57,745 nucleotides of DNA from Alphaproteobacteria bacterium (GTDB taxonomy: Bacteria > Pseudomonadota > Alphaproteobacteria > UBA2966): the NCBI GenBank assembly GCA_018650465.1, contig JABIFY010000147.1, positions 1 through 57,745 of the forward strand, given 5' to 3'. The translations under genes and the position numbers were made by a program. The first letter of the stretch is position 1; the number at the start of each line of letters is the position of its first letter. Positions 31,114 through 57,739 of the stretch are shown here, piece by piece. The notes under the pieces were generated by a model that worked only from the letters and a program-made list of their open reading frames with translations, was not told where the DNA came from and ran no database searches.

Positions 31114-33015
31114 CTATTCAGCGGCTTCCCGCTGGCCGACGTCTTCCCGGCCCATCCATTTCTGGAAGATCGGGGTGGTCGGGGGGTCAAGATGGGTGTC
31201 GGCTTTGCAGCGGGCTTTCAATTCTTCCATGGTGCCACCACGGTCAAAGAGCTGGACTTCACCGCGCTCGGATCTCATGCGATTGCGCAGATCGTCGGTG
31301 GCGCGCTGGTCGACATTAAACTTGTCATCCAGCACCACGCCGTAACGTTTTGCCCCTTCGATGGAGACCAGTCCACGGCTGGTATCCAGGGCTACTTGCG
31401 CCGCTTCACGCTCAAACGGATCGCCCCAGCCACCGCCGCCCCAGGTATTGAAATAGAGCGTATCGCCGTTGGCCACCTTGATGCGGTCACATTTGGAGAC
31501 CATCCATTCGCGTGTGCCATCGGCCCGCACCATCAGCTTGTCGCTGCGCTGACCGGGTAAGCCGCCATTCACACCCCAGGGATGGCTGAGCCAGCGATCA
31601 TCGTGGATGGATATCTCGCCGGGTTCGAGGAACATATAACCCATGGACAAGCCATTGCCGCCGCGATGCAAACCAGGTCCGCCGGAATCAACGATGGTTT
31701 CATAGGTCACAATACGTAAGGGGAAATAGGCCTCAAGGAATTCGTTAGGCACGTTGGTGAAGGCCGGCCACAGGGAGTGGCCATCAGGACCATCACCAGC
31801 AGGTCGCCCCGGTACGCCACCAAAGCCGATTTGATAGAGCTGGTACCATTCGCCATTTTTGTCATAGCCGGAATACATGAAGTGCGGGCTGTCGGAGAAA
31901 CCGGCGGCGCACAAGGCATCAGGCGAGCCCTGACCCAACACACCACTCATGATATCAAAAATACGCGACAGCAAATGGGTGCGCGATGACAGGGCTGCGG
32001 GGCGAATAGGCTTGAGGATGGTGCCGCGCGGAATGCGCACATCCACCAGATCATAAAAACCGTCGTTGAACAAAATCTGCGGATCGAACAGATTGATGAA
32101 AAAAGCGCCAAGGAACATCTTGAACATTTCTTCGTTCAGCAAAAAGTTCACCGAACTAATGGATTGCGGATCGGTGCCGCCGAAATCAAAGATCACCCGG
32201 TCGCCTTCGCGCCACAGAGTGCATGCGATTTTGTAGGGGCCCATGCCCATGCCGTCATCGTCAATATAATCTTCGAAATAGACCTTCTTTTCCGGCACGA
32301 CCATATTCAGGATCGCGCTCATGGCGATGCGGTTGCGATCCAGCATGTTTTCCATGGCCCCGACCAGTTGGTCCGTCCCGAACCGTTCTGACATCTCAAC
32401 AACCCGGCGTTCCGCCAGGCGCAAGGCGGCGATAATGGCGTTGAAATCTGACTTGTTCCATTCCGGCAGGCGACAGTTGCGCAGGATTACATTGAGCAGT
32501 TCCTGGTTCAGCTTACCCTTGTGGTAAATCTTCACAGGCGGCAGCTGAATGCCTTCTTCAAAGATTTGCGCGGCGTCTGTTGGCAAACTGCCAGGCACCT
32601 TGCCGCCCACATCGGTCATGTGACCAAACATGGCGGCCCAGGCAACAATGCGACCGTCAATATAAATCGGCATCATGGTCAGCCAGTCGTTCAGGTGACT
32701 GATGGCACCATTACAGCTGTAGGGATCATTGGTCAGGAAAATGTCACCTTCTTCGATCTCGCCGTCATAGCCTTCCTTGAAACCGGAAAAGAACGAGCCG
32801 AACTGTCCCACAACCATCTTGCCGTCAGGATTGGCAATCATGGGAAAGGCGTCGTGCTGTTCACGGATACCCGGCGACATAGCCGTGCGGAACAGCACGG
32901 CGTCCATCTCGGTCCGGGCATTTTTCAGAGCATTTTCAATAATATCCAGAGTGATCGGATCGATATCGACGTTCTCGAACGGCCTGGTGTTAGTTTGAAT
33001 AATTTTTGCGGGCAT
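31114..33015 (-). CDS. hyuB: Hydantoinase B/oxoprolinase family protein (HyuB), copy 1
   Basis: Protein of 633 residues, slightly longer than the usual 520-600. Core HyuB motifs are IDPITLDIIENALKNARTEMD, FRTAMSPGIREQHDAFPMI, NDPYSCNGAISHLNDW, GHMTDVGGKVPGS and the C-terminal DRIKVANGDTLYFNTWGGGGWGDP. With HyuA it forms ATP-dependent hydantoinase, N-methylhydantoinase, 5-oxoprolinase or acetone/acetophenone carboxylase-type complexes. The start is preceded by AGGAGG. It follows the tagged HyuA gene by 26 bases. Its core is clearly paralogous to the second HyuB at 49090-51351 but lacks that protein's 166-residue N-terminal addition. Confidence 0.9.
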   Translation of the reverse strand: MPAKIIQTNTRPFENVDIDPITLDIIENALKNARTEMDAVLFRTAMSPGIREQHDAFPMIANPDGKMVVGQFGSFFSGFKEGYDGEIEEGDIFLTNDPYSCNGAISHLNDWLTMMPIYIDGRIVAWAAMFGHMTDVGGKVPGSLPTDAAQIFEEGIQLPPVKIYHKGKLNQELLNVILRNCRLPEWNKSDFNAIIAALRLAERRVVEMSERFGTDQLVGAMENMLDRNRIAMSAILNMVVPEKKVYFEDYIDDDGMGMGPYKIACTLWREGDRVIFDFGGTDPQSISSVNFLLNEEMFKMFLGAFFINLFDPQILFNDGFYDLVDVRIPRGTILKPIRPAALSSRTHLLSRIFDIMSGVLGQGSPDALCAAGFSDSPHFMYSGYDKNGEWYQLYQIGFGGVPGRPAGDGPDGHSLWPAFTNVPNEFLEAYFPLRIVTYETIVDSGGPGLHRGGNGLSMGYMFLEPGEISIHDDRWLSHPWGVNGGLPGQRSDKLMVRADGTREWMVSKCDRIKVANGDTLYFNTWGGGGWGDPFEREAAQVALDTSRGLVSIEGAKRYGVVLDDKFNVDQRATDDLRNRMRSERGEVQLFDRGGTMEELKARCKADTHLDPPTTPIFQKWMGREDVGQREAAE

Positions 33016-33041
33016 GTCTAAAAGCCTCCTATTGGTCCGGG

Positions 33042-35465
33042 TTATGCAGGGTTGATAATGATGTTGCCAACATCATCAACTTCGCCCACATGGTCGGGCA
33101 AGATCAGCGTGGTTGAATCCATTTCGGTGACAACCGCCGGACCCTTGATGCGGTCCCCGGCTTTCAGCAAACTGCGGTCGTAAATCTTTGCCGCGTGGTT
33201 TTGTCCGTTTGCAAAAACGTTGGTATCTTCATAGACGGCCGCCGAACCATCGCCGCCGCCTTGCGGCAGTCTTTCGGCTGTGGCAGTGCTCTCGCCTCCC
33301 TGAACCATGGCGCGCAGGTTATATAATTCCCGCGGCGCATCCAGTTTAAAGGTAAAGAGCTGCTCATGTAGATCATCAAACTGGCGACCCAGTTCTTTCA
33401 GGCCCTGGGTGCGGAATTCTTCCGGCGTCATATCGACTGTCAGGCGCATACCTTGCCCGGCATAACGCAAGTCAATCTGATAAAGCGTTGTTTGTTCCTC
33501 ACGCGGCACGCCTTCATCATTGAGGGCTTCGGCGGCTTGGGCCGCCAACTCTTCCAGAACACCCAGAACTTCAGAATCCGATGTTTCGTCGAAGCGGCGT
33601 ACATAGGTGCGGGCGGCTTCGTTACGCACCCGCGTGGTGGCGTCGCCATAGGCGCACAAAACGCCCGGCCCCGGCGGAATAATTACCGGCCAGGAATTCA
33701 TTAGTTTACCCAGGGCATTGGCGTGAATGGGACCCGCGCCGCCAAAGCCAATCAAGGCAAAATCGCGTGGATCGAAACCCTGCTCAACCGAAACAAGGCG
33801 CAGGGCACCAAACATGTTTTCGTTGACGATATTAACGATGCCCTCTGCGGCTTCCAACATGGAAAGCCCCATGGCGTCGGCAACATTTTTCACGGCCTTT
33901 TCCGAGGCTGCCTTGTCCAGCTGCATGTCACCACCCAGCTTGGCGGTGGAAGGTAAATAGCCCAGCACCACATTGGCATCCGTCACGGTTGGTTCCGTAC
34001 CGCCATTGCCGTAAGCCGCGGGGCCTGGTTCGGCACCGGCACTTTGTGGACCAACGCGCAGGGCCTTGGTAAGTTCCGGCACATAAGCAATGGAGCCACC
34101 GCCAGCGCCAACGGTGCGCACATCAACGGACGAGGCCCGCACGGTGACATCCGCCACCCGCGTCTCGCGGCGTGTTTTGGCCACACCATCCTGGATCAGC
34201 GCCACATCTGTGGATGTCCCGCCCATATCAAAGGTCAGCAAGTCTTTATATCCGGCCTGTTTGGCCATCCAGATGGCACCGGACACGCCGCCCGCCGGAC
34301 CGGACATAAGCAGGTTCACCGGCAATTCCTTGGCCGCATCAGCAGAGGACAATCCACCGTCCGAGCGCAGGATGTGCAATTGCGTGCCGCCGGTTCGACG
34401 ATCCAGTTCCGACATCAGGTTTTCAATATATTTCCCCACCACCGGACGGATGTAGGAGTTCACGACCGTGGTTTCGGCCCGTTCATATTCATACATTTCC
34501 GGCACAATTTCCGAGGAAATCGAAATCGGCACGCCGGGCATGACTTCCTGGGCGATCTCACGAATGCGACGTTCGTGGGCCCCATTAGTATAGGAATTCA
34601 TCAGGGAGACGGTCAGGGCTTCAATACCATGCTTGGCCAGGTCCGCCAGATCAGTGCGCAGTTTTTGTTCGTTCAGGGGATCAACTGTTTCGCCCTTGGC
34701 GCTCATGCGCTCGTCAGCTTCGATGGTTAATTCCAGCGGGGCCAGCGGATCGGTTTTGTTGAAAATCACCCAGCCACCCAGACCACCCGGCACGTACGAT
34801 CGGGCAATTTGCAGGGTTTGTTTATAGCCTTTGGTCATGACCAGGCCGACTTTGGCACCTGAGCCTGTCAGCACCGTATTAGTGGCAACAGTTGTGCCAT
34901 GCATGACCTGGCCAATGGCTGTGGGTTCAATCCCGGCCAGGCCGCAAATCTTTTCAACGCCGTTCAATACACCCACGGATGAATCCTGCGGGGTCGACGG
35001 CACTTTGGCCGTGAAGGTCTGACCACTGGCTTCTTCAATCAGCAGCAAATCGGTAAATGTCCCGCCAACGTCAACGCCCAACAGGTAATCCCCACCCGCG
35101 GGCGTGCGCTTGCGCGGTGCGGGCCCGGAACTTGCCACGGGCTTTGCTGTTGCCTTGGCTGGTGGCGATGACTTGCGGGCTTCAGGTGCCGGCGCGGGCT
35201 CACGGCTTTGTGGCTGCGGCGTGTAGGCAGCGGGTGCGCTGCCGCCTTTGGAGGCAGGTGCCACAACCGGTGTCGGGGCGATCACGGGGGCGATAGAAGA
35301 TGGAGACGTTGAGGAGGTAGAAGAACTTGACGCGCCCGCTGATCTGGCTTGCGTACTTCCACTTGAACTCGACTTCTTGACGCCGCCCAGTTTGTCAAAT
35401 TCGCTTTTGTAGCCGTCCAGTTGGGAATCAAACCAGTCAGTCAGGTCTTTTTTGTCGCTCGTCAT
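33042..35465 (-). CDS. hyuA: Hydantoinase A/oxoprolinase family protein (HyuA), copy 1, with N-terminal tag and disordered linker
   Basis: Protein of 807 residues against about 690 for normal HyuA. Residues 1-28 form a charged helix-like segment (LTDWFDSQLDGYKSEFDKL). Residues 29-126 are a Ser/Pro/Ala-rich, probably disordered linker. The HyuA core starts at about 127 (YLLGVDVGGTFTDLLLIEE) and contains the ATP-site motifs VMHGTTVATNTVL, LLTFDMGGTSTDVALI and VGAGGGSIAYV. The start at 35465 is supported by GGTGG/AAAAAAG upstream. The tag resembles N-termini of the second HyuB and of a 69-residue protein in this window. First gene of the hyuA-hyuB pair, 84 bases after the isochorismatase-fold gene. 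Confidence 0.9.
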   Translation of the reverse strand: MTSDKKDLTDWFDSQLDGYKSEFDKLGGVKKSSSSGSTQARSAGASSSSTSSTSPSSIAPVIAPTPVVAPASKGGSAPAAYTPQPQSREPAPAPEARKSSPPAKATAKPVASSGPAPRKRTPAGGDYLLGVDVGGTFTDLLLIEEASGQTFTAKVPSTPQDSSVGVLNGVEKICGLAGIEPTAIGQVMHGTTVATNTVLTGSGAKVGLVMTKGYKQTLQIARSYVPGGLGGWVIFNKTDPLAPLELTIEADERMSAKGETVDPLNEQKLRTDLADLAKHGIEALTVSLMNSYTNGAHERRIREIAQEVMPGVPISISSEIVPEMYEYERAETTVVNSYIRPVVGKYIENLMSELDRRTGGTQLHILRSDGGLSSADAAKELPVNLLMSGPAGGVSGAIWMAKQAGYKDLLTFDMGGTSTDVALIQDGVAKTRRETRVADVTVRASSVDVRTVGAGGGSIAYVPELTKALRVGPQSAGAEPGPAAYGNGGTEPTVTDANVVLGYLPSTAKLGGDMQLDKAASEKAVKNVADAMGLSMLEAAEGIVNIVNENMFGALRLVSVEQGFDPRDFALIGFGGAGPIHANALGKLMNSWPVIIPPGPGVLCAYGDATTRVRNEAARTYVRRFDETSDSEVLGVLEELAAQAAEALNDEGVPREEQTTLYQIDLRYAGQGMRLTVDMTPEEFRTQGLKELGRQFDDLHEQLFTFKLDAPRELYNLRAMVQGGESTATAERLPQGGGDGSAAVYEDTNVFANGQNHAAKIYDRSLLKAGDRIKGPAVVTEMDSTTLILPDHVGEVDDVGNIIINPA

Positions 35466-35549
35466 ATCTTTTTTCCACCTTCGCAAGCGACCCGTTGATC
35501 GCTCTGTTTTTGGAATTTCAGAAAATATTTTTGCAATTTTGTAAATTTA

Positions 35550-36197
35550 TCAGGCGCTGTTACGTCCTCGCCACTCTTCAATCCACTTGATGACACTGTC
35601 CGTATCGGTAATATCTGCATATCGGCGCCCGACATCGCGTAAATTGTCATTGTGGGGTCGCTCGTCATGATCGCCGACGCCATCTTCCGGCACAATCGTG
35701 CGATAGCCAAACTGAAAACTGTCGATGACCGATGCCCGAATACAGCCCGATGTCACGCAGCCAACAAGAATAACCGTATCGACCTTCTGTCTGACCAGAA
35801 ATGGTACAATGGGTGTCTGAAAAAAGATCGACGCGCCGGTCTTGCAGAATTTCACATCATAGTCGGGATCATAAATCCGGGGATCCAGTTCAGTGCAGGG
35901 ATGACCATGAATCAAATCCTCACGCACTGCCGCCACTTTCCAGTAGGGCATGTCCTCCAGCGATTTATAGGCGGTGTAACAGGTTGCCACCGGCACTTCG
36001 CAACGCCGGGCCACCTCCAGCAAGCGGGCAGCATTATCCACGGCACGATCAATCAAGGGGGCACCACCCAGGGGATATTTTTCTTCCGTGAAGGCCGTCT
36101 GAAAATCCACGACAACAACAGCAGGGCGGTCACCGTAGCCGATAACTTCACTGCCATAGGTCCGCTCGTGATAGGTCGCTTCGGAAACGTCGCTCAT
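35550..36197 (-). CDS. Isochorismatase-fold amidohydrolase (N-carbamoylsarcosine amidase/maleamate amidase-like), copy 1
   Basis: Protein of 215 residues. The catalytic triad positions are visible: Asp in AVVVVDFQTAF, Lys in DVKFCKTGASIFFQT and Cys in VILVGCVTSGCIRAS. The family hydrolyses carbamoyl and amide bonds (N-carbamoylsarcosine, maleamate, biuret, nicotinamide). Immediately upstream of a HyuA/HyuB pair, removal of the carbamoyl group from a ring-opened hydantoin is a natural role. The start at 36197 follows AGGGGAAAAATC; a frame opening at 36221 has no such site. A GTATAC palindrome lies in the divergent promoter region. Confidence 0.88.
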   Translation of the reverse strand: MSDVSEATYHERTYGSEVIGYGDRPAVVVVDFQTAFTEEKYPLGGAPLIDRAVDNAARLLEVARRCEVPVATCYTAYKSLEDMPYWKVAAVREDLIHGHPCTELDPRIYDPDYDVKFCKTGASIFFQTPIVPFLVRQKVDTVILVGCVTSGCIRASVIDSFQFGYRTIVPEDGVGDHDERPHNDNLRDVGRRYADITDTDSVIKWIEEWRGRNSA

Positions 36198-36261
36198 GAT
36201 TTTTCCCCTGTCCACGCACATGCTTGCGCGCTTTGGCGCTGATTACGCCATTCGGCGCTAA

Positions 36262-39033: not shown

Positions 39034-39513
39034 ATGAGTGGCTGGCAATGGTTCTGGACCCTGGTGGGCTTCATCGTTTACATCATCGTTTTGATATTCC
39101 TGTATTTCTACGAGCCCTTCGCAGACCTGTTCAATCTGGTCGTCTACGGTCTCAGCTATAGCAACGCCATCTTCTGGGCCGGTGTGATTATTGGCATCGT
39201 CGGCTTTTGCACCTTCCACTGGCGCGCTTATCGATTACACATCGTGAAACAAAAGAGCGTCGAATCCATGGTGCTCAGCTCACTCAGGGGCTCCACCTTT
39301 GTGGCTATTTTACTGAGTGCCAGCGCTACCTTGCAGGCCGTACAGATGTTGTGTGTTCACTTGCTGCAACCAGGCTATGCGCTTGACGCCGCCTTCGGCA
39401 AACGCCTGACGGCGGTTCTGGCCTTGCTAATTCTGACCGGCTTGTTCTGCATCCTCTTCTGGCTGCTGAAGATCATGCGGTCCGCAAATTCATCGACGCC
39501 GAAGACAGTCTAA
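39034..39513 (+). CDS. Small four-helix membrane protein, paralogue of the protein at 53756-54280
   Basis: Protein of 159 residues, function unknown. Four hydrophobic helices are predicted by eye at about 8-25, 43-65, 85-105 and 122-145. Shared with the 174-residue protein at 53756: LIFLYFY.PF, SN.IFW, GI.....HW...R, ATLQAV.ML..HL and a final R-containing tail. Conserved aromatic and His residues between helices may mark a ligand or partner site. It is convergent with the dihydropyrimidinase gene and separated from it by a strong hairpin. GGGGAT precedes the ATG. Confidence 0.75.
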   Translation: MSGWQWFWTLVGFIVYIIVLIFLYFYEPFADLFNLVVYGLSYSNAIFWAGVIIGIVGFCTFHWRAYRLHIVKQKSVESMVLSSLRGSTFVAILLSASATLQAVQMLCVHLLQPGYALDAAFGKRLTAVLALLILTGLFCILFWLLKIMRSANSSTPKTV

Positions 39514-45087: not shown

Positions 45088-46188
45088 TCACCGGTTCGCG
45101 GTTACGACATCCAGCAAGATTCCGGATTCAGCGCCCCAGCTGATCGTTTCCCGGTCACCGTATTTGCGCATGGAATCCGATAATTTCCGGTGCTGTTCAA
45201 CAGAAACATAATGCTTTGGGGCGATTTCAAAAACGTCGGTTTCCAGGGTGCCGAGATATTCCGTGTTGACGTAGACGCCTTCGATTGAATTGGCCATATC
45301 GCCGTTTTCACCGGTATGCATGAGATCGGCGCGCACGGAGAAAGTTACCTTCTGGCCAATTGATACCTCGGGCAAATAATCCGGCTTGCGCACATAATAG
45401 AGTTTTTCCCCGGACTCAACAAAAACAATGGAGCCACTGCGCGACTTGATGACGCCATCAAACAGATTGTTGTTTCCAATGAAGTCAGCCACAAAGCGGG
45501 TGCGCGGGGCTTCGGCGATTTCGCGTGAGGTACCGATCTGTTGCACGAGGCTGTCACTCATGACGATAACCTTGTCGGCCATGGCCATGGCCTCCTGCTG
45601 AGAGTGCGTGACCATGATAAAGGTCATCTCAAGGTCACGCTGAATGCGCTTCAGTTCGATCATCATGGTCTGGCGCAAGGAATAATCCAGAGCACCCAGT
45701 GGTTCGTCCAGTAGCAACAAGGTCGGGTTACTGATCAGGGCACGAGCCAGGGCCACACGCTGTTGCTGACCACCCGAAAGATCGGCCGGGCGGCGCGTGG
45801 CAAAGTCCCCAAGGCCCACCATTTCAACCATTTCCCAGGCCTGGCGGGAGCGCTCCAGCGGCTCAATCCCCTTCATCTTGAGACTGAATTCAACGTTCTC
45901 CAAAACGTTGCGGTGCGGAAACAAAGCAAAGCTCTGAAACATCATGGCCGTATCGCGCTTGGATGGCGGCAGGTCGGTGACATCCTCACCCTGGATTTCG
46001 ATCGAACCGGAGGTGACTTCCTCCAGCCCGCCAATCATGCGCAAGGTCGTGGTTTTGCCACAGCCCGAAGGCCCCAGCATGGCCACGAACTCGCCCCGCT
46101 CAATCTCGGCGTTGAAGTCGATAACCGCGCGCACACCGCCGGGATAGGTTTTGTCGACGTTCCTCAGAACGACGTCAATTTCGGCCAT
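45088..46188 (-). CDS. potA: Spermidine/putrescine-type ABC transporter ATP-binding protein (PotA-like)
   Basis: ATPase of 366 residues. Walker A GPSGCGKTT near residue 38, signature LSGGQQQRVALARAL near 135, Walker B LLLLDEPLGALD, switch His in IMVTHSQQEA, and a C-terminal TOBE/OB regulatory domain (about 240-366). It should energise the PotB/PotC-like permeases at 42634-44443, which lack their own ATPase. It is expressed from the opposite strand as the last gene of the hyuA-hyuB-flotillin transcript, 12 bases after the flotillin gene. Confidence 0.92.
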   Translation of the reverse strand: MAEIDVVLRNVDKTYPGGVRAVIDFNAEIERGEFVAMLGPSGCGKTTTLRMIGGLEEVTSGSIEIQGEDVTDLPPSKRDTAMMFQSFALFPHRNVLENVEFSLKMKGIEPLERSRQAWEMVEMVGLGDFATRRPADLSGGQQQRVALARALISNPTLLLLDEPLGALDYSLRQTMMIELKRIQRDLEMTFIMVTHSQQEAMAMADKVIVMSDSLVQQIGTSREIAEAPRTRFVADFIGNNNLFDGVIKSRSGSIVFVESGEKLYYVRKPDYLPEVSIGQKVTFSVRADLMHTGENGDMANSIEGVYVNTEYLGTLETDVFEIAPKHYVSVEQHRKLSDSMRKYGDRETISWGAESGILLDVVTANR

Positions 46189-46200
46189 AAACCTTGCCCG

Positions 46201-49014
46201 TTAATCAGCTGCTTTGGCGGTAGCCTGCAACAATGACCAGACCGTCTCAAACGGCAGGTCATTGAAAGCACCGCCTTCGTTGGCATTTTTCAACAAGCCA
46301 AGGGCCTGGGTTTGCGCTTCGTTATTCCCGGCCTTCTTTTCCAGAACCTTCAACGCATCACTGAAGGAAACTTCGCGAGACTTCTTGGTGCCGAAGTTAT
46401 CGCGCACCAGGTCGGCTAGCTGTTCTGCCATCTCACGGAATTCACCACCCCGGCCCGGCTTGCCCCAAATGCCCCGAATGCCGTTACTGGCAAAGCGGTT
46501 CTTCAGGCCTTCCGGCAGAGACTGGGCGACACCTTCAAGGACTTCACCAATTGAGAAACCTGAAGTGAACATATTCCGGATGTTATCGACAGTGTCATCA
46601 CCGCCGCCATACATGCGGATCTGGGCCTGACTAAGGGCGTTGCCCATGGCTTTGGCTTGATCTATATGCACATCACGTTCAGCTTCGATTTGCAGTTTGG
46701 AAAGTTCAAGGAAGGCCGCAGCGTCGTTATATTTCTTGAGGGCTTCGGCCTTGGCTTCCATACCACTGGCTTCGGCTTCCAACATACGCTGGGTGTTGTT
46801 GACCCGTAATTCCTCGACCTCAGCCTCGGCGCGGCCGCGTGCGGCAGCCTCTTGAGTGATACCTTCCGCAGAGATGACCTGGGCTTCACTGGTAGCTTTG
46901 GCCCGGATCAGGGTGGCATCGGATTCCTCTGAAGCTGACTTCTTGCGGGCCGAGGCCTGACTGACCATATGCATGGAAGACACCGCAGCATCGGCTTCTT
47001 CGGAAATTTTCTTTGTTTCCGCAGATTGTTCCGCCGCAATGCGTTCCACTTCTTTGGTACGCGTTGCATCAGCGACAATCCTGACAGATTCGACACCATG
47101 CTCTGCTTTGGCTTTTTCAGCTGTTGTCTTCAGACGCTTGACTTCAGCATCTTCCAGCTCGCGGGTTTTGTTGACGAGCACGATTTCACGATCACGCTCT
47201 TCTTCCTCACGGGCCAGGAAGCGCAGGATATCTGCCTTCTCGCGTTCCTGTTCCTTGGCGATGATCTTGATTTCATCTTCCTTGGTTGCCAGCTCCTGGG
47301 CTGTGCGTGAAACGCGGGCTGCAGCGTAATATTCGCCCTCCTTGTTGACCAAGGCGATTTCGCGATCCTTTTCCTCGGCTTCGCGGGCCGTTTGGCGACG
47401 AATTTCCGCTCGCTCCAGCTGCTCCGCCTTGGCAACAAGCGCAATATCGCGATCCCGCTCTTCAGCTTCACGGGCCAGAGACCGGCGAATTTCAGCCGCT
47501 TCGCGAGCCTTGCTCTCGTCGATCACGGTCGCATCACGCTGGATACGTGCCTGTTCGATGGTCAGTTCCGTGGCGATTTCGTCCTGTTCAACTTCCAGGC
47601 GACGGCTCAGAATGATGCGCTGCTTTTCACTGAGAACACGGGCTTTTTCTTCCGCGATCTGCTTTTCCTGTTCAGCCATCGCAAGGGCTTCGTCCTTGTC
47701 GATATTCAGAACATTCAGCTTGGTTTCCAGGGCGCGTTTGCGCATGGTCAGCGATGTTGCTTCTGTCACCTTGTGGCGGGCATCACGGGCGGCTTCTTCT
47801 GCCTTCATGACTTCGGTTGTCTGGGCAATATCAGCTTCCTGACGCTCGCGCTCCTTACCCGACAATTGAATGGCGCGATCTTTTTCCGCCGCTTCACGGG
47901 CCAATGATCGATCGATCTCGGCCAGTTCATTTTGTTTGGCCTTTTCGACCAGGGCGATTTGGCGGTCGCGCTCGGCTTCTTCCAGGGCAAGGTTACGCTC
48001 GATATTGGAAAGCTCTTCTTCCTTGGCCTTCTTGATCAGTGCGATTTCCTTGTTGCGACGCTCTTTTTCCAGCGTCAGAGTACGGTCAATTTCCGACAGT
48101 TCGCGCTTTTTGGCTTCTTCTGTAATGGCCACTTCACGATCTGTGCGCTGGCGTTCCAGTTCAACCTCGTTGGCGATTTCGCGTTCTTCCACGGACTTGC
48201 GCTGATCCAACATATAAATCTGTTTCTGACCCAGTTGCAGTGCCTGTTCGTTGGAGACGTCTTTGTCTTGACTGGCGTTGGCAAATGCTTCTTTACGCTC
48301 GATTTCCAGCAAATCAAGTTGCGTATCCAGATCCTTTTGGCGGATGGCAACGGTGGTGCGTTTTTCAGTTTCGTGCACCTTGCGTTTGGCGGCAGAGGTA
48401 ATCTCGGTAATGATCTTCAGACCTTCAGCATCGAAGATGTTGTTGGAATTGAAGTATTCCTTGCCGGCCTGTTCCAGGGTCACGATGGTGACTTCTTCCA
48501 GCAATAAACCGTTGACCTGAAAACTTGCAATGACGTTTTCTTTGACCGCTGTGGCAAATTCTTCACGATTTTCGTGCAATTCGCTCAGGGTCTTGGTCGC
48601 TGCATAGCTGCGCAGGGCACTGACCACTTTGGCTTCCAGCAAGTTGCGAACTTTTTCAGCATCGAACGTTTTGTCACCCAAACTGCGACTGGCAGTGAGC
48701 AAATCATCTTCTGTCCGCCCCACATGGGCGTACAGTTCTGTGACGATATCGATGCGGATTTTGTCGGCGGTCAAAACGGCTTGTTCTCGAGACCGGCTGA
48801 CGATCAGTTTGATGGTCTCCAGTGATATCCACGAAACTTCGTGAAAAACCGGCAGAACAACTGCACCGCGACCCAAGCATACCTTGGTGCCACCAAAACC
48901 GGTGCGAATGAAGCCCATGTTGGCTGGCGCTCTTTTGTACACCCAAATCGAGATGACATAAAGAATGGCCAGAACAACGATTGCCGTGAAGAAAATTCCA
49001 ATCCAAAGTTCCAT
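46201..49014 (-). CDS. Giant flotillin (SPFH/band 7) with expanded coiled-coil repeats
   Basis: Protein of 937 residues against about 500-700 for usual flotillins. One N-terminal membrane helix (LWIGIFFTAIVVLAILYVIS), an SPFH domain (about 30-220, GFGGTKVCLGRGAVVLPVFH), a long heptad-rich coiled coil, and a flotillin-type end (DQAKAMGNALSQAQIRMYGGG, VAQSLPEGLKNRF). Within about 289-625, blocks of 29 residues recur, built on DR.IALV.KA....LAEI.R.LARE. Flotillins scaffold membrane microdomains and recruit protein complexes. Here the gene is embedded in the hyuA-hyuB operon before the PotA-like ATPase, suggesting a scaffold for the transporter or the enzymes. Confidence 0.9.
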   Translation of the reverse strand: MELWIGIFFTAIVVLAILYVISIWVYKRAPANMGFIRTGFGGTKVCLGRGAVVLPVFHEVSWISLETIKLIVSRSREQAVLTADKIRIDIVTELYAHVGRTEDDLLTASRSLGDKTFDAEKVRNLLEAKVVSALRSYAATKTLSELHENREEFATAVKENVIASFQVNGLLLEEVTIVTLEQAGKEYFNSNNIFDAEGLKIITEITSAAKRKVHETEKRTTVAIRQKDLDTQLDLLEIERKEAFANASQDKDVSNEQALQLGQKQIYMLDQRKSVEEREIANEVELERQRTDREVAITEEAKKRELSEIDRTLTLEKERRNKEIALIKKAKEEELSNIERNLALEEAERDRQIALVEKAKQNELAEIDRSLAREAAEKDRAIQLSGKERERQEADIAQTTEVMKAEEAARDARHKVTEATSLTMRKRALETKLNVLNIDKDEALAMAEQEKQIAEEKARVLSEKQRIILSRRLEVEQDEIATELTIEQARIQRDATVIDESKAREAAEIRRSLAREAEERDRDIALVAKAEQLERAEIRRQTAREAEEKDREIALVNKEGEYYAAARVSRTAQELATKEDEIKIIAKEQEREKADILRFLAREEEERDREIVLVNKTRELEDAEVKRLKTTAEKAKAEHGVESVRIVADATRTKEVERIAAEQSAETKKISEEADAAVSSMHMVSQASARKKSASEESDATLIRAKATSEAQVISAEGITQEAAARGRAEAEVEELRVNNTQRMLEAEASGMEAKAEALKKYNDAAAFLELSKLQIEAERDVHIDQAKAMGNALSQAQIRMYGGGDDTVDNIRNMFTSGFSIGEVLEGVAQSLPEGLKNRFASNGIRGIWGKPGRGGEFREMAEQLADLVRDNFGTKKSREVSFSDALKVLEKKAGNNEAQTQALGLLKNANEGGAFNDLPFETVWSLLQATAKAAD
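47130..48150 (-). repeat. 29-residue coiled-coil repeats in the flotillin
   Basis: Tandem and dispersed 87-base units encode blocks such as NKEIALIKKAKEEELSNIER and DRQIALVEKAKQNELAEIDR, each continuing for nine residues like SLAREAAEK. At least seven blocks can be recognised, some separated by diverged sequence. The pattern implies growth of the coiled coil by unequal exchange. Confidence 0.8.
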
Positions 49015-49089: not shown

Positions 49090-51351
49090 TCATGATACAC
49101 CTGATCGTCCTTCGCCGAAATCAAACAATTCCAGCGATTTTCGACTGAGTTTTGTGGCTTCGCGCAAGTCTGTTGTAGCCCGTAAATCCAGCTCATAATG
49201 TCGACCAGTGAGGATGACACCATAGGCGACACGGGCCTTCTCCTGGGTCATCAATTTGCGGGCGACGTCGTTTCTGACACGTCTGGGATCACGTTCAAGC
49301 GGATCGCCCCAACCACCACCACCGGCAGTTATGAAGACAATACGATCTCCGGCCTCGACGCGCACATTATCAATCTTTGACGGCAAGGGTTCAGGTTCCG
49401 CAGTGCCGCGAATAATCCATTTTTCTGAACAGGCCCCAGGCTGGCCACCCAGAATACCCCAAGGCTGTGATTCCTGGCGATCGTCGTGGATGGAGACGTC
49501 ACCGGGTTCCAGCAAGCGATAGACTTTTTCGATACCGTTGCCGCCGCGATGTTTACCGGCCCCGCCCGTGTCCGCCACACTTCCGTAGCGTTCAATCACC
49601 ATGGGGAAAAAGTTTTCCAGATATTCGGTCGGGATATTTTCAAACAGTGGCCACCAGGAATGACCATCCATGCCATCGCCCACGGGCCGCCCCGGAATAC
49701 CGCCATAAAGAATTTCCATCAGCTGGAACGGTCGTTTGTGACTGTCCACGCCGGAAAACAGGAAATGCGGGCTGGAGCCATAACCGGCGGCCGTTGCCAT
49801 CTCTGGTGCATGTTTGCTCAGCGCCCCACCCATGACATCAAACTGACGCGACAGGGCGTGGGTGCGGCAACCAAGTGGTGCCGGGAATTCAGGATTAACC
49901 AGCGAACCCTTTGGCAGGTTCACATGGATCAAATCGTAAAAGCCGTCATTGAACAAAATTTGTGGATCAAAAACCATGATCATGTAAACGCCGATGAACA
50001 TCTTGAACATGCCATCATGCAGATAGAAATTGATCGGGCCTGGTGCCTGTGCCGATGTACCGGTCCAGTCGAAATAGGCGTGATCGCCTTCCCGCCAGAC
50101 CGTTAGTTTCATCTTGAACGGTCCGTTACCCAGACCATCGTCATCCACATAATCTTCAAAAGACTGCGGCTCTATCGGCAGGTTTTGCACGATCAATTTG
50201 CGCATGGCCCGGTTGGTACGCTCCAGCAAGGCTTCGCAAGCCTGGGTATAGGTACCGGTGCCAAAGCGTTCACAGATTTCCACCACCCGACGTTCCCCGG
50301 CGCGACACCCGGCCACAATGGCCATCAGGTCGCTGTAGTTCATTTCCGGCGTGCGGGTATTGTTCATCAAGATATCAAGGGCGGCTTTATTCAACACACC
50401 TTCGGCATAAATCTTGACCGGCGGAATACGCATGCCTTCGCCAAAGATCGAGGTCGCCGCCGTCGGCATGCTGCCGGGTACGGGGCCACCCACGTCCATC
50501 ATATGACCAAACATGGAAGAAAAGCCGACAAGGTCGCGTCCGACGAAAATCGGGATCAGCACCATCCAGTCATTGATGTGGCTGATGGCGCCGCCGCATT
50601 TATAAGGATCGCTTTGCAGAATAACGTCGCCCGGCTTGAGGTCGAAATCCTGCTGTTTGAGCATTTCAGATATATAAGAGCCGAACTGGCCCACAATCAT
50701 GCGGCCTTCGGCGTCCGTGATCATGGGAAATTCGTCATGCTGTTCACGAATGACCGGCGACATGGCCGAACGGAACAATATGGCATCCATTTCATGCCGG
50801 GCATTGCGCAGGGCATTTTCAATCAAGTCCAGCGTGACAATGTCGATAGGCCCAACGACGGCGTCAGATTTGGCACCTGTTCGGGCAGCAGGTGCCAACG
50901 GTGCCTGGTCGCCCTGTCCTGAATCAACAGGTGCGCGCCCGGTAAACTGATCGGCGCAGCGCAAAGCGGCTTCTTCGGCAGCCTTTTCAAAGGCGAGCGC
51001 TGAATTCCCTTCCAGGGTAGCCGAACCCTGATCCGCTTTGGATTTCCCCGCGACATCAATTTTGATGCGCACAATGGCCTTGCCGTTTTCAGCTTTGGTC
51101 TCAAGAATGTCATAAGACCAATCAAAGTCGAAGCGGCGATTCAGGGCGATAATCGCATTGGTGCCCAGCTTCAATGCCCTTGGCACAAGGTCAACCGGCC
51201 CGGCTGTCGCGTTGCTTGCGGGCCGCGCACTGGGACTGAGCAAACTGGCATCATCCATCTGGCGACTGAACAACTGGTCAAACTGGTTCTTGTTGGCCGA
51301 CAGCAGATCGTCCAGGGAAATGGGGGTGCGCGTACGGGTATCGTCAGACAT
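49090..51351 (-). CDS. hyuB: Hydantoinase B/oxoprolinase family protein (HyuB), copy 2, with N-terminal tag and extra module
   Basis: Protein of 753 residues against about 520-600 normally. Residues 10-32 form a helix-like tag (ISLDDLLSANKNQFDQLFSR), 33-54 a linker, about 55-137 an extra compact domain, 138-166 a Pro/Ala linker; the HyuB core starts at about 167 (GPIDIVTLDLIENALRNARH) with NDP-like DPYKCGGAISHINDW and C-terminal FITAGGGGWGDPLERDP. It partners the HyuA encoded just upstream (TGATG overlap). Substrate unknown: hydantoin, N-methylhydantoin, oxoproline and carboxylase-type reactions are all used in this superfamily. The additions are not part of the known fold. Confidence 0.9.
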   Translation of the reverse strand: MSDDTRTRTPISLDDLLSANKNQFDQLFSRQMDDASLLSPSARPASNATAGPVDLVPRALKLGTNAIIALNRRFDFDWSYDILETKAENGKAIVRIKIDVAGKSKADQGSATLEGNSALAFEKAAEEAALRCADQFTGRAPVDSGQGDQAPLAPAARTGAKSDAVVGPIDIVTLDLIENALRNARHEMDAILFRSAMSPVIREQHDEFPMITDAEGRMIVGQFGSYISEMLKQQDFDLKPGDVILQSDPYKCGGAISHINDWMVLIPIFVGRDLVGFSSMFGHMMDVGGPVPGSMPTAATSIFGEGMRIPPVKIYAEGVLNKAALDILMNNTRTPEMNYSDLMAIVAGCRAGERRVVEICERFGTGTYTQACEALLERTNRAMRKLIVQNLPIEPQSFEDYVDDDGLGNGPFKMKLTVWREGDHAYFDWTGTSAQAPGPINFYLHDGMFKMFIGVYMIMVFDPQILFNDGFYDLIHVNLPKGSLVNPEFPAPLGCRTHALSRQFDVMGGALSKHAPEMATAAGYGSSPHFLFSGVDSHKRPFQLMEILYGGIPGRPVGDGMDGHSWWPLFENIPTEYLENFFPMVIERYGSVADTGGAGKHRGGNGIEKVYRLLEPGDVSIHDDRQESQPWGILGGQPGACSEKWIIRGTAEPEPLPSKIDNVRVEAGDRIVFITAGGGGWGDPLERDPRRVRNDVARKLMTQEKARVAYGVILTGRHYELDLRATTDLREATKLSRKSLELFDFGEGRSGVS

Positions 51352-53450
51352 CAGTGCCGCCCTCCCGCAGATTGCTTCACATTCGATTGTCCAACCAGGG
51401 CCTGGCCTTCCGGGTGGATCAGGATATTCAGATAATCATCCACATCGCCCACATGGCCGGGGTGGATGACACAGGTCGAATCTTTTTGCACCACAATGGC
51501 TGGTCCCGGAATGTGGTTACCGGCTTGCAGCTTGTTACGATCATAAACCCCGGCGCTAACAAAGCTGCCATTAAAATAGACCTGATCCTGACGGAGCAAG
51601 GCGGCGGATGCATCGGGACCGGATTTTTCGAATTTCGGGAAGGCGACCTTGTCGACTTCGCCGGTGCCGATGGCCCGCAAGTTCACAATTTCTACCGGCT
51701 GCTCCAGCTTGAAGCCATATTGGCGTTCATGGGCGACGCCAAAGCTGGCGACCAGTGAGGCCAGACCGTTATTACGCAAATGCTCAGGATCAACATCCAT
51801 GGTGAATTCATAGCCCTGGCGGAAATAACGCACATCCGCCTGATAGCGCACGTCACGCGCCCGTTCGCTCAAGCCTTCTTCTTTCAGCCATGCCTGGGCT
51901 TCTGCGCCCAGGGTCGTCAAAATATCAACCACTTGATCCACTTCAATATCATCCACTGTGCGCGCAAACGTGCGGGCAAATTCGTTTTTGATATCGGAAT
52001 ATAAAAAGCCCAGGGCCGACAAAACACCCGGTGTGGGTGGAACAATCACCGGGAAACAGCCTGCCAGAATGGCCATGGCGTTGCCATGCAAAGGCCCCGC
52101 CCCACCAAAAGCCACGAGGGCAAAATTGCGCGGATCAAGACCTTTTTGCACTGAGACAAGTCGCAAGGCACCAAACATATTTTCGTTGACGATATTCAGA
52201 ATGCCTTCAGCCGTCTGATGCAGATCCAGACCCAGGTCCTGACCCAGTTTGCCAACCGCATCTTTCGCGGCTTGCACATTCAATGACATGTCGCCGCCCA
52301 GCAAACTCGGCGGCAAGCGGCCCAGCACAACATTGGCATCCGTTACCGTTGGTAATTCGCCACCATGCCCATAACAGGCAGGCCCAGGTCGGGCACCGGC
52401 GCTATCCGGCCCCACACGTAAAGCGCCCGTCATGGGCACATGGGCGATAGAACCGCCGCCTGCACCCACGGAATGCACTTCAACAGATGGCACCTTAACA
52501 GGGTAATAGCCCAGCTGGGTCTGGCGCGACTGGGTTGGCGCACCGTCCTGGATCAGGGAAACATCGGTGGACGTCCCGCCCATATCAAAGCCCAGGGCAT
52601 TCGGGTAGCCTGCCAATGTGGCAAGGTAAGCCGCGCCTGAAACACCGCCAGCGGGACCAGACAACATGGTATGCACAGGCGATTCTGACGCCTTGGCCAC
52701 ACTCATCAAGCCACCATCGGAGCGCACAATATTAACCTTGGGGCTAAACTGGATACTGCGTAATTTTTCTTCAAAGCCTTTAAGATAGCGCCCCATACTG
52801 GGTCGCACATAGGCGTTCATGACCGTGACCAAAGTCCGTTCATATTCGCGGAATTCCGGCAGTAATTCCGATGACAAAGAGACCGGAATATCGCCGCCCA
52901 TATCCTGGATCATTGCTTTCAAGCGCTGCTCATGGGTCGGATCGGCATAGGAATGCATCAGGGAAATGGTAATTGATTCAACCCCGGCATCCAGCAATTC
53001 ACGAATGCTTTCGCGGGCCAGGGTTTCTTCCATGGGCGTAATGACGTCGCCGCGGGCCGAAATACGTTCAACAATGCCGCGGGTGAATTCCAGATCAGCC
53101 AAAGGATCGGGCTTTATCATGATCATCCAGCCCGCCAGGGGGCCAGGGGTCTGGGACCGGGCCAGGTGCAAAACCTGTTCAAAGCCTTCGCTCACCAGCA
53201 GGCCGACTTTGGCGCCTTTTTCTTCCAGCACAATATTTGTCGAAACGGTGGTGCCGTGCAGCAGGGCAGTAATGGCGGAAGGCGATACACCGGTCTCGCG
53301 CATCAGCTCTTCAATACCATTATGAATGCCAACCGATTGGTCAGCCGGAGTCGAGGGTGTTTTCAACAGATGCATGGCACCTGTTTCACCGTCGAACAGC
53401 AGGAGATCCGTAAAAGTTCCCCCGACATCAATGCCAAGACGACTTGACAT
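51351..53450 (-). CDS. hyuA: Hydantoinase A/oxoprolinase family protein (HyuA), copy 2
   Basis: Protein of 699 residues, the normal length, starting directly at the ATPase core: LGIDVGGTFTDLLLFDGE, then LLHGTTVSTNIVLEEKGAKV, LGFDMGGTSTDVSLIQDG and VGAGGGSIAHV. It provides the ATP-using half of the HyuAB enzyme. The ATG at 53450 follows GGGAGG; the frame continues upstream to 53507 without a site. Unlike HyuA copy 1 it has no tag; in this pair the tag is on HyuB. First gene of the operon hyuA-hyuB-flotillin-potA. Confidence 0.92.
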   Translation of the reverse strand: MSSRLGIDVGGTFTDLLLFDGETGAMHLLKTPSTPADQSVGIHNGIEELMRETGVSPSAITALLHGTTVSTNIVLEEKGAKVGLLVSEGFEQVLHLARSQTPGPLAGWMIMIKPDPLADLEFTRGIVERISARGDVITPMEETLARESIRELLDAGVESITISLMHSYADPTHEQRLKAMIQDMGGDIPVSLSSELLPEFREYERTLVTVMNAYVRPSMGRYLKGFEEKLRSIQFSPKVNIVRSDGGLMSVAKASESPVHTMLSGPAGGVSGAAYLATLAGYPNALGFDMGGTSTDVSLIQDGAPTQSRQTQLGYYPVKVPSVEVHSVGAGGGSIAHVPMTGALRVGPDSAGARPGPACYGHGGELPTVTDANVVLGRLPPSLLGGDMSLNVQAAKDAVGKLGQDLGLDLHQTAEGILNIVNENMFGALRLVSVQKGLDPRNFALVAFGGAGPLHGNAMAILAGCFPVIVPPTPGVLSALGFLYSDIKNEFARTFARTVDDIEVDQVVDILTTLGAEAQAWLKEEGLSERARDVRYQADVRYFRQGYEFTMDVDPEHLRNNGLASLVASFGVAHERQYGFKLEQPVEIVNLRAIGTGEVDKVAFPKFEKSGPDASAALLRQDQVYFNGSFVSAGVYDRNKLQAGNHIPGPAIVVQKDSTCVIHPGHVGDVDDYLNILIHPEGQALVGQSNVKQSAGGRH

Positions 53451-53506
53451 TGCACCTCCCTTTTTCGCAGCCTTCGAACCTTTTGAGCCGAATACCCCTG
53501 ACCTCA

Positions 53507-53520
53507 AAATGTATACAACA
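53507..53520. promoter_or_regulatory. GTATAC palindrome site 5 upstream of hyuA copy 2
   Basis: AAATGTATACAACA (GTTGTATACAT on the minus strand), core 53511-53516, about 60 bases upstream of the hyuA start at 53450. It lies in the 305-base gap 53451-53755, which otherwise holds only the plus-strand promoter-like sequence and the palindrome listed next. Confidence 0.5.
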
Positions 53521-53755: not shown

Positions 53756-54280
53756 ATGTCGAATGAAATTGCAGATCGCCGTCGGCCCCGCTTCTGGATT
53801 GGCCTGCTTGCTTTTATTATTTTGCTGATATTCCTGTATTTTTATACACCGTTCGAGACCCTGGTGAAGGGCAGCATTCCCAAGATTCACTTTAGTAATG
53901 TGATATTCTGGTTTGCCTCGGTGGTAGGCATCATTGCCTACGCCGTGTCGCATTGGCAGTCGTTCCGCAATAATTTGTCCAAACATGTAACGTCGCTGGA
54001 TGTGCCGGTTCTGGTGTTTGATACGCTTCAGGTATCAATTCTGATCGCCGTGATCTTTTGTGCCGGAGCCACATTGCAGGCCGTCGCCATGCTGTCGGAA
54101 CATCTTATGAGCGCTGCCCCGATCATTGGATCGGGCCTGGGTGAAAATCTGCTGGCGATTGTGCTGCTGGTCGTGATGGCAGTGCTGTTTTATTTGCTGC
54201 ACCACGTGGTTCGCGCCTTCCGTGACGGCTGGCAAACCCGCAGGCCACCTCGCTTTACCACGTCATCCTCTGACGGCTGA
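53756..54280 (+). CDS. Small four-helix membrane protein, paralogue of the protein at 39034-39513
   Basis: Protein of 174 residues, function unknown. A basic N-terminus (ADRRRPRFW) leads into four hydrophobic helices. It shares LIFLYFYTPFETL, FSNVIFWFASVVGII, HWQSFR, ATLQAVAMLSEHL and LFYLLHHVVRAF-type segments with the protein at 39034, across the full length, so the two are paralogues. Both stand beside hydantoinase genes and both have their own promoter region. It is convergent with the CobW gene, only two bases between stops. Confidence 0.75.
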   Translation: MSNEIADRRRPRFWIGLLAFIILLIFLYFYTPFETLVKGSIPKIHFSNVIFWFASVVGIIAYAVSHWQSFRNNLSKHVTSLDVPVLVFDTLQVSILIAVIFCAGATLQAVAMLSEHLMSAAPIIGSGLGENLLAIVLLVVMAVLFYLLHHVVRAFRDGWQTRRPPRFTTSSSDG

Positions 54281-56799: not shown

Positions 56800-57525
56800 T
56801 TGAGCGACTGGAAAGACGAAACGCTGCAAAGCTACCAGAGCAAAGGATTTGCATCCCGCGCCGGATTTGGCAAGCGACCTGCCTTGTTAATCGTTGATTT
56901 TATCAATGGCTTTACGGACCCCTCTTCGCCCCTGGGTGGTGATTTTTCAAGCCAGTTAGGCGTCACCAGCCAATTGCTGGAAGTTTTTCGCCGCGAACGC
57001 CTGCCCATTGCCTATACCACCATCGAATATGATGCCGACTTCCGCGACGCTGGTGTCTTCATCAAAAAGGTGCCGTCCCTGTCCGTGCTTTTGCGTGGCT
57101 CGCCCATGTGCAAGATCGACGACCGCATCCGTCCGGAAACCGGTGAATATGTCGTCTCCAAGAAATACGCCAGCAGCTTCTTTGGCACGAACCTGGATAC
57201 CTGGATCAGAAACAACGATGCCGACACAGTGGTCATTGTTGGTTGTACCACAAGCGGTTGCGTGCGCGCCTCAGCCGTCGATTCCCTGCAACACGGGTTT
57301 TACACAATCGTTGTGGCTGAGGGCTGTGGCGACAGGGCGGACGGTCCGCACGAAGCCAATTTGTTTGACATGGATGCCAAATATGCCGACGTGGTTTCAA
57401 CCGCTGAAGCCCTGGATTATGTCAACGGACTGAGCCGCAAGCCAGAGTCCCGGTCTGCCCGTGTCGCCGGCCGGAATTTCAAGCGCTGGTGGGCCGATGG
57501 CGACGGCGCCGAAAAAGAGGGATAA
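56800..57525 (+). CDS. Isochorismatase-fold amidohydrolase (N-carbamoylsarcosine amidase-like), copy 2
   Basis: Protein of 241 residues. Catalytic Asp in ALLIVDFINGFTD, Lys in VVSKKYASSFFGT and Cys in VIVGCTTSGCVRAS are all present. It resembles N-carbamoylsarcosine amidase and maleamate amidase. The last 30 residues are a basic, Ser/Arg-rich tail (SRKPESRSARVAGRNFKRW) not needed for the fold. Translation starts at TTG (56800), with GGGAG seven bases upstream. It is a paralogue of the enzyme at 35550. The 69-residue tag-like protein follows after four bases. Confidence 0.88.
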   Translation: MSDWKDETLQSYQSKGFASRAGFGKRPALLIVDFINGFTDPSSPLGGDFSSQLGVTSQLLEVFRRERLPIAYTTIEYDADFRDAGVFIKKVPSLSVLLRGSPMCKIDDRIRPETGEYVVSKKYASSFFGTNLDTWIRNNDADTVVIVGCTTSGCVRASAVDSLQHGFYTIVVAEGCGDRADGPHEANLFDMDAKYADVVSTAEALDYVNGLSRKPESRSARVAGRNFKRWWADGDGAEKEG

Positions 57526-57529
57526 ACAA

Positions 57530-57739
57530 ATGTCGGGAAAATATTCATCACCATTCGACGACCTGCTGGCCAGCAATCAAAAACAAATGGATGACGTGCT
57601 GGGTGGACCAGGCCGATCTTATGCTCCACGCCCCGCTGCACCGACCTCTGTCACAGCCAGCCCGCCCCCATCTGACAACACCGGCGGTAACACAATTTCA
57701 GGCACGGCGAACGGCATTCCATTCAGTCTCAAAGTCTGA
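57530..57739 (+). CDS. 69-residue tag-like protein: helix motif plus Pro/Ser-rich tail
   Basis: Complete small protein with start and stop in the window. Residues 7-26 (SPFDDLLASNQKQMDDVLGG) look like an amphipathic helix; the remainder is Pro/Ala/Ser/Thr-rich (RSYAPRPAAP) and ends ISGTANGIPFSLKV. The helix resembles the N-terminal tag of HyuB copy 2 (LDDLLSANKNQFDQLF) and less closely that of HyuA copy 1. I do not recognise a family. It may be a free-standing targeting or adaptor peptide or the first gene of more tagged proteins beyond the window edge. It lies four bases after the isochorismatase-fold gene, so translation is probably coupled. Confidence 0.6.
   Translation: MSGKYSSPFDDLLASNQKQMDDVLGGPGRSYAPRPAAPTSVTASPPPSDNTGGNTISGTANGIPFSLKV

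Follow-up and report, generated by a model that had tools for sequence, protein, structure and literature searches.

Results

Gene content of the locus

The window, as we call the whole stretch of 57,745 nucleotides that was analysed, carries a hydantoinase locus in which HyuA, HyuB, an SPFH protein and an ABC transporter ATPase follow one another on the reverse strand, together with a divergent gene for a small membrane protein, p5, and with a CobW GTPase, a PuuE-like deacetylase, and an isochorismatase-like hydrolase accompanied by a small tagged protein. A D-hydantoinase/dihydropyrimidinase, an amidase, a solute-binding protein, a permease and a first copy of HyuAB are also encoded nearby, and this gene content suggests that the locus serves the uptake and ATP-driven opening of cyclic amides. 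HyuAB copy 1 (31114-36221, reverse strand) has its own isochorismatase-like gene and is without the tag, the module or an SPFH gene; HyuA1 as called has an N-terminal extension of roughly 110 aa, which may be a start-codon artefact.

HyuA copy 2 (51351..53507, reverse strand; Pfam Hydantoinase_A, E 2.1e-95) is the ATP-binding partner subunit of HyuB copy 2. About 75 bp downstream of HyuB lies the gene for a 937-aa SPFH/Band_7 protein (46201..49014, reverse strand; Pfam Band_7, E 4.6e-14), which has one N-terminal membrane segment in a hydrophobicity scan and a long, highly repetitive charged coiled coil; phmmer, run with the first 300 residues as the query, found no match among PDB chains. It is followed by an ABC transporter ATPase of the PotA/polyamine type (45088..46188, reverse strand). 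On the forward strand, p5 (53756..54280) has 3-4 hydrophobic segments and is conserved at most tagged loci, making it a second candidate partner; a p5 paralogue (39034-39513, forward strand), with no Pfam match, lies near the amidase and the D-hydantoinase. The isochorismatase-like hydrolase (56800..57525, forward strand; Pfam PF00857, E 3.9e-34) is biuret-amidohydrolase-like and matched NCBIfam BiuH with an E-value of 2.4e-12, below the cut-off.

Architecture of HyuB copy 2

HyuB copy 2 (753 aa; 49090..51351, reverse strand, as are all its parts) consists of a tag, a linker, a module with a predicted Rad52/dsRBD-type fold, a second linker and the Hydantoinase_B core. Since the Pfam Hydantoinase_B domain (PF02538, E 3.6e-149) spans residues 170-684 only, residues 1-168 are an extension. 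The catalytic core (residues 169-753; 49093..50847) keeps intact the D, H, D and H metal ligands as defined for CapB (PMC8453981). The tag, ISLDDLLSANKNQFDQLFSRQ (residues 11-31; 51259..51321), is conserved across tagged HyuB proteins and is predicted as a 24-residue helix (13-36) in an AF2 model of residues 1-171. A more specific reading of the tag as a strongly amphipathic helix proved weak, its hydrophobic moment being only marginally above that of shuffled sequences. Linker 1 (residues 32-62; 51166..51258) is mostly disordered in the same model (pLDDT <50 at 37-52) and fast-evolving, and has a moderately conserved motif, HRPAT..DL..AS, in other members. Linker 2 (residues 139-168; 50848..50937) is Ala/Pro-rich, also disordered (pLDDT <50 at 142-164) and fast-evolving by dN/dS.

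The module is a folded domain under selection

The module itself occupies residues 63-138 (50938..51165). The initial annotation had remarked that residues 55-137 look folded rather than disordered, and structure prediction agrees: when residues 54-143 were modelled by AF2 from 22 homologues, the mean pLDDT was 83.6 and the pTM 0.72, with the order helix, three strands, helix, while in the model of residues 1-171 the module has a pLDDT of about 92 (blocks at 89-94), with helices at 64-74 and 117-137 and strands at 78-88, 91-100 and 103-112. The coordinates, the first helix, two strands and the long helix originally described were correct, but the third strand, KSKADQGSAT, had been overlooked.

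The module is conserved in 20 HyuB sequences and 2 standalone proteins, with L17, W25, V41, G56, A67, A71 and A75 invariant. In close pairs its pairwise dN/dS is about 0.11-0.16, compared with 0.03-0.06 for the catalytic core, and the linkers reach values of about 0.7; the module is under purifying selection, constrained less than the enzyme core and more than the linkers. Disorder or an insertion artefact is ruled out by the AF2 models and dN/dS, and the module is a real, selected domain rather than a chance product. Pfam and NCBIfam searches of the window protein gave no named family for it.

The predicted fold is Rad52-like, with most nucleic-acid-binding residues lost

Rad52-type folds are known from DNA annealing. 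The resemblance to Rad52-like or double-stranded-RNA-binding folds, which had been noticed from the sequence as a loose one, was borne out by structural comparison. Human RAD52 was the top Foldseek match in the PDB (E 2.0e-4), alongside dsRBDs. With the first model, VIA returned RAD52 at Z 9.3 (rmsd 2.4, 80 aligned), yeast Mgm101 at 8.9, yeast Rad52 at 8.8 and dsRBDs at 7.9 or less; with the longer model, RAD52 (8rj3_H) scored Z 9.9 (rmsd 2.5, 78 aligned) and the best dsRBD 8.0, so that the gap between the two groups is modest. The best viral structural match was a phage protein annotated as Rad52/59/22 (E 8.9e-6). At the sequence level, Pfam Rad52_Rad22 (PF04098) was the family most often matched by homologous modules, with a weak match in 6 of 22 (best E 7.5e-4), and its curated cut-off was reached by no module in the 10 genomes scanned. 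Aligned by hhalign with RAD52 alone, the module gave an E-value of 0.007 and a probability of 5.5%; in this low-probability collinear alignment an FG..W stretch and the final helix are common to both. Profile searches of PDB sequences with alignments A1 and A2 yielded only weak, unconnected matches (RFC, HflC and AcrIF5). Because Foldseek, VIA and the independent weak Pfam match point the same way, the Rad52-like fold of the modelled domain is well supported, while membership of the Rad52_Rad22 family is not established.

In the RAD52 inner-site columns, the K152 position is a mixture of A, R and L across the modules, the R153 position is R or K in 18 of 24, and the R156 position is A in 13 of 24; of the three, only the R153 position is kept. 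Inspecting alignments A1 and A2 revealed neither the GPxH loop nor the KKxAK at the start of helix 2 that mark dsRBDs. Most modules carry no net charge or a negative one (pI 5.0 in the window), and a few members have a pI of about 9. With R153 the only position kept, no dsRBD signature present and a neutral or acidic character in most modules, nucleic-acid binding by the module is unlikely, and it probably no longer binds DNA.

Distribution of the tag and the module

Relatives were sought across 84,980 genomes, which gave 80 HyuB loci. The tag is present in L001-L024, L046 and L076, and the module also in L001-L016, L018, L046 and L076; in the seven HyuB loci L017 and L019-L024 the tag is followed only by a Pro/Ala-rich linker, and in the other 54 loci the match begins only near the start of the catalytic core. 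In the HyuB tree L017 branches within the module-bearing sequences, and L019-L024 form a clade apart (hereafter the gamma clade), which points to at least two probable losses of the module with the tag retained. The module was found in 8 of 143 relatives and 10 of 385 class members, and a search of 398 phylum members gave no credible match beyond the window's own genome. Two phylum matches (L122 and L123) were rejected as chance, being antisense-like long frames with no tag and no W/FG motif in the matched stretch.

Three settings are seen for the module. At the N-terminus of HyuB it is always preceded by the tag. It also occurs at the C-terminus of HyuB proteins of a distant clade (L100-L102; full genes L103-L105), in genomes that hold the N-terminal form as well; these genes (L103, 7968-10187, reverse strand; L104, 5513-7792, forward strand; L105, 1772-4219, reverse strand) represent a separate fusion event. 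Finally, a search for stand-alone copies, proposed at the outset, did find them, as small tag-plus-module proteins beside an isochorismatase-like hydrolase (L014, L016, L018 and L097-L099). In the genomes scanned, the tag was convincing only on HyuB and on this small standalone protein. Recurrence only in tagged enzymes, named at the outset as an informative outcome, holds in part: nearly every module genome encodes a tagged protein, but untagged HyuB C-termini carry the module too. Nor is it private in the sense of being confined to the window, although it is restricted to one HyuB subfamily and its neighbours.

The window's own small tagged protein (69 aa; 57530..57739, forward strand), recognised by the tag HMM and by its orthologues, consists of the tag SSPFDDLLASNQKQMDDVLG, a linker and a terminal SGTANGIPFSLKV. 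Orthologues elsewhere carry the Rad52-fold module, and the window protein has lost it. Its ORF directly follows the isochorismatase-like gene and ends six bases short of the contig end. A GSA.G..F motif is present between strand 3 and helix 2 of the standalone proteins L014 (3-686, reverse strand), L097, L098 and L099; it is akin to the terminal SGTANGIPFSL of module-less standalones and is a possible second binding motif.

Linkage to the SPFH gene

The same SPFH gene directly follows HyuB at 23 of 23 tagged loci with downstream DNA and at 0 of 54 untagged loci, some of which have short flanks. Searches for the C-terminal region of the SPFH protein found it in 7 of 143 relatives, with one further marginal match at E 8.5e-4, and in 9 of 385 class members; the module is carried by all 7 and all 9 of these SPFH genomes. 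Fisher p-values for the association (4e-11 and 2e-17) are inflated by shared ancestry, because the operon is inherited as a unit. Hardly any of the scanned relatives without the module have the SPFH C-terminal region. The sole module genome without it (G021) is a fragmented assembly with a standalone tag-plus-module protein and no tagged HyuB, and the HyuB genes with a C-terminal module are not adjacent to SPFH.

A lineage with a HyuB that is probably catalytically dead

One lineage (f67; genomes G079, G198 and G291) has HyuB proteins that have lost all four metal ligands, while the tag, the module and SPFH remain. The tagged, module-bearing genes concerned are L106 (6707-8956, reverse strand), L117 and L118, and the HyuA of L106 (from G079) has also lost the GGTSTD phosphate motif. 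By its sequence, the L106-type HyuAB beside SPFH is likely a pseudo-hydantoinase. That a probably dead HyuAB keeps its putative docking parts suggests a structural role for the tag, the module and SPFH, and this evidence depends less on operon inheritance than the linkage counts do.

Discussion

The reading that we prefer, although we regard the case for it as evenly balanced, is that the module serves as a protein-protein assembly domain and, together with the tag, holds HyuAB in an SPFH-organised membrane complex. The module would have the Rad52/dsRBD fold with its nucleic-acid-binding residues largely lost; the tag helix and the module, carried on flexible linkers, would tether the ATP-dependent HyuAB to a complex at the membrane, whose organiser would be the SPFH (flotillin-type) protein of the gene just downstream of HyuB. 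The small tag-plus-module protein beside the isochorismatase-like hydrolase would enter the same complex, which would bring the ring-opening enzyme next to both the following hydrolase and the ABC importer. In this reading it is by inference that the parts dock, that SPFH is their partner and that substrate is channelled. Such an assembly is consistent with the recurrence of the module in three places (N-terminally on HyuB, C-terminally in a distant HyuB clade, and in the standalone tagged proteins beside the hydrolase), with the retention of the tag where the module was lost (the L017 lineage and the gamma clade), and with the persistence of tag, module and SPFH in the lineage whose HyuAB is probably dead. 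SPFH proteins have been described to assemble into rings and cages with cargo, for example FtsH, inside (PMC13086221). Against the proposed assembly stands the fact that the tagged HyuB proteins essentially form a single clade, which makes their linkage to SPFH partly a matter of inheritance. In addition, G021 has the standalone tag-plus-module protein while SPFH and tagged HyuB are absent from its fragmented assembly, the C-terminal-module HyuB is not beside SPFH, the gamma clade HyuB has no module, and p5 is linked almost as tightly.

The module could instead oligomerise only with its own copies, HyuB with HyuB or HyuB with the standalone protein, leaving SPFH as an operon passenger. Its closest folds are indeed ring-formers (RAD52 and Mgm101) and dimerising dsRBDs (Staufen dsRBD5, Loquacious dsRBD3 and TRBP dsRBD3), and L014, L016, L018, G005 and G006 each have both a module-bearing HyuB and a standalone protein. 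We nonetheless consider this unlikely, given that the module was lost from the standalone protein in the window lineage and from HyuB in the gamma clade, and that it is the tag, common to all, that SPFH accompanies. The partner to which the module docks may be p5 or the ABC transporter rather than SPFH: p5 is found at nearly all tagged loci and at no untagged locus, a p5 paralogue occurs at two C-terminal-module loci without SPFH, and PotA-type ABC genes come after SPFH in most loci. However, p5 also occurs in G004, which has no module, SPFH or convincing tag, and it is divergently transcribed, whereas SPFH is the direct downstream gene every time; a partner other than SPFH thus seems quite unlikely.

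Two further readings dispense with an assembly role. One is that the module is a folded but functionally near-neutral decoration, a solubility aid or spacer tolerated in one HyuB subfamily, as its faster evolution relative to the core and its loss in the L017 lineage and the gamma clade might indicate. A dN/dS of about 0.11-0.16, the recruitment of the module by another HyuB clade and by small proteins belonging to this pathway, and its retention in a lineage whose HyuB is probably catalytically dead make this very unlikely. The other is that the module binds mRNA or ssDNA and gives the enzyme a regulatory moonlighting role. The fold does belong to nucleic-acid binders, the RAD52 R153 position is R or K in 18 of 24 members and the pI is about 9 in a few; this is set against K152 and R156 positions that are not kept, a GPxH loop and a KKxAK helix not visible in the alignments, a charge of zero or below in most members with a pI of 5.0 in the window, and a genomic context that is purely catabolic and transport-related, and we regard it as highly improbable.

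A bolder version of the SPFH-organised assembly, conceivable but doubtful in our view, is that an SPFH cage serves catabolism as an organelle-like scaffold: a dedicated cargo tag, SLDDLLxANKxQFDxIF, would direct its clients there, and the Rad52-fold docking domain, a relative of DNA-annealing proteins, would lock them in place. If true, this would be a peptide-addressed, membrane-bound enzyme compartment for cyclic-amide breakdown. A literature search of incomplete coverage found no paper combining a hydantoinase with SPFH or flotillin; the folds and the enzyme class are known, and it is the combination, with the linkage of tag, module and SPFH, that appears undescribed. That a Rad52 fold is conserved in a metabolic enzyme, and is seen again in partners from its pathway next to a dedicated SPFH gene, suggests a reuse of this fold in metabolism. 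It also offers a testable candidate role for an orphan bacterial SPFH protein, namely the gathering of named client enzymes through a definable tag.

Set beside known systems, the enzyme itself is familiar: it shares the core (residues 169-753) and the four conserved metal ligands with the beta subunits of ATP-dependent hydantoinases, oxoprolinases and caprolactamases (HyuB, CapB), but the untagged relatives examined start at the core and none has the 168-residue extension of tag and module. With RAD52, Mgm101 and phage Rad52-type SSAPs the module shares a helix, a three-stranded sheet and a long helix over ~80 residues (Z 8.1-9.9), collinear FG..W and A..A..A..K/R positions and a weak Pfam match, whereas it differs in being the compact core alone, without the RAD52-type basic DNA-binding set, below the Pfam cut-off and fused to a metabolic enzyme. 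Rad52-type annealing proteins have been placed in a dsRBD-like SSAP superfamily (PMC8093625). The alpha-beta-beta-beta-alpha topology is also that of dsRBDs, including the protein-binding, dimerising Staufen dsRBD5 and TRBP dsRBD3 (Z up to 8.0); unlike these, the module has no GPxH or KKxAK signature, a Z somewhat below that for Rad52 and no RNA-related context. The tag recalls the cargo-loading peptides of encapsulins and bacterial microcompartments in being a short conserved helix on a flexible linker common to different pathway proteins, but no shell-protein gene was identified among the locus genes examined, and the sole linked assembly-type protein is SPFH. The closest parallel for the latter is the SPFH cage around a client enzyme in HflK/C-FtsH. 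The SPFH family here is a different one, and its client would be a hydantoinase with a putative targeting tag; as in HflK/C-FtsH, however, an SPFH gene is tightly linked to one enzyme, and a membrane-organised client assembly is conceivable.
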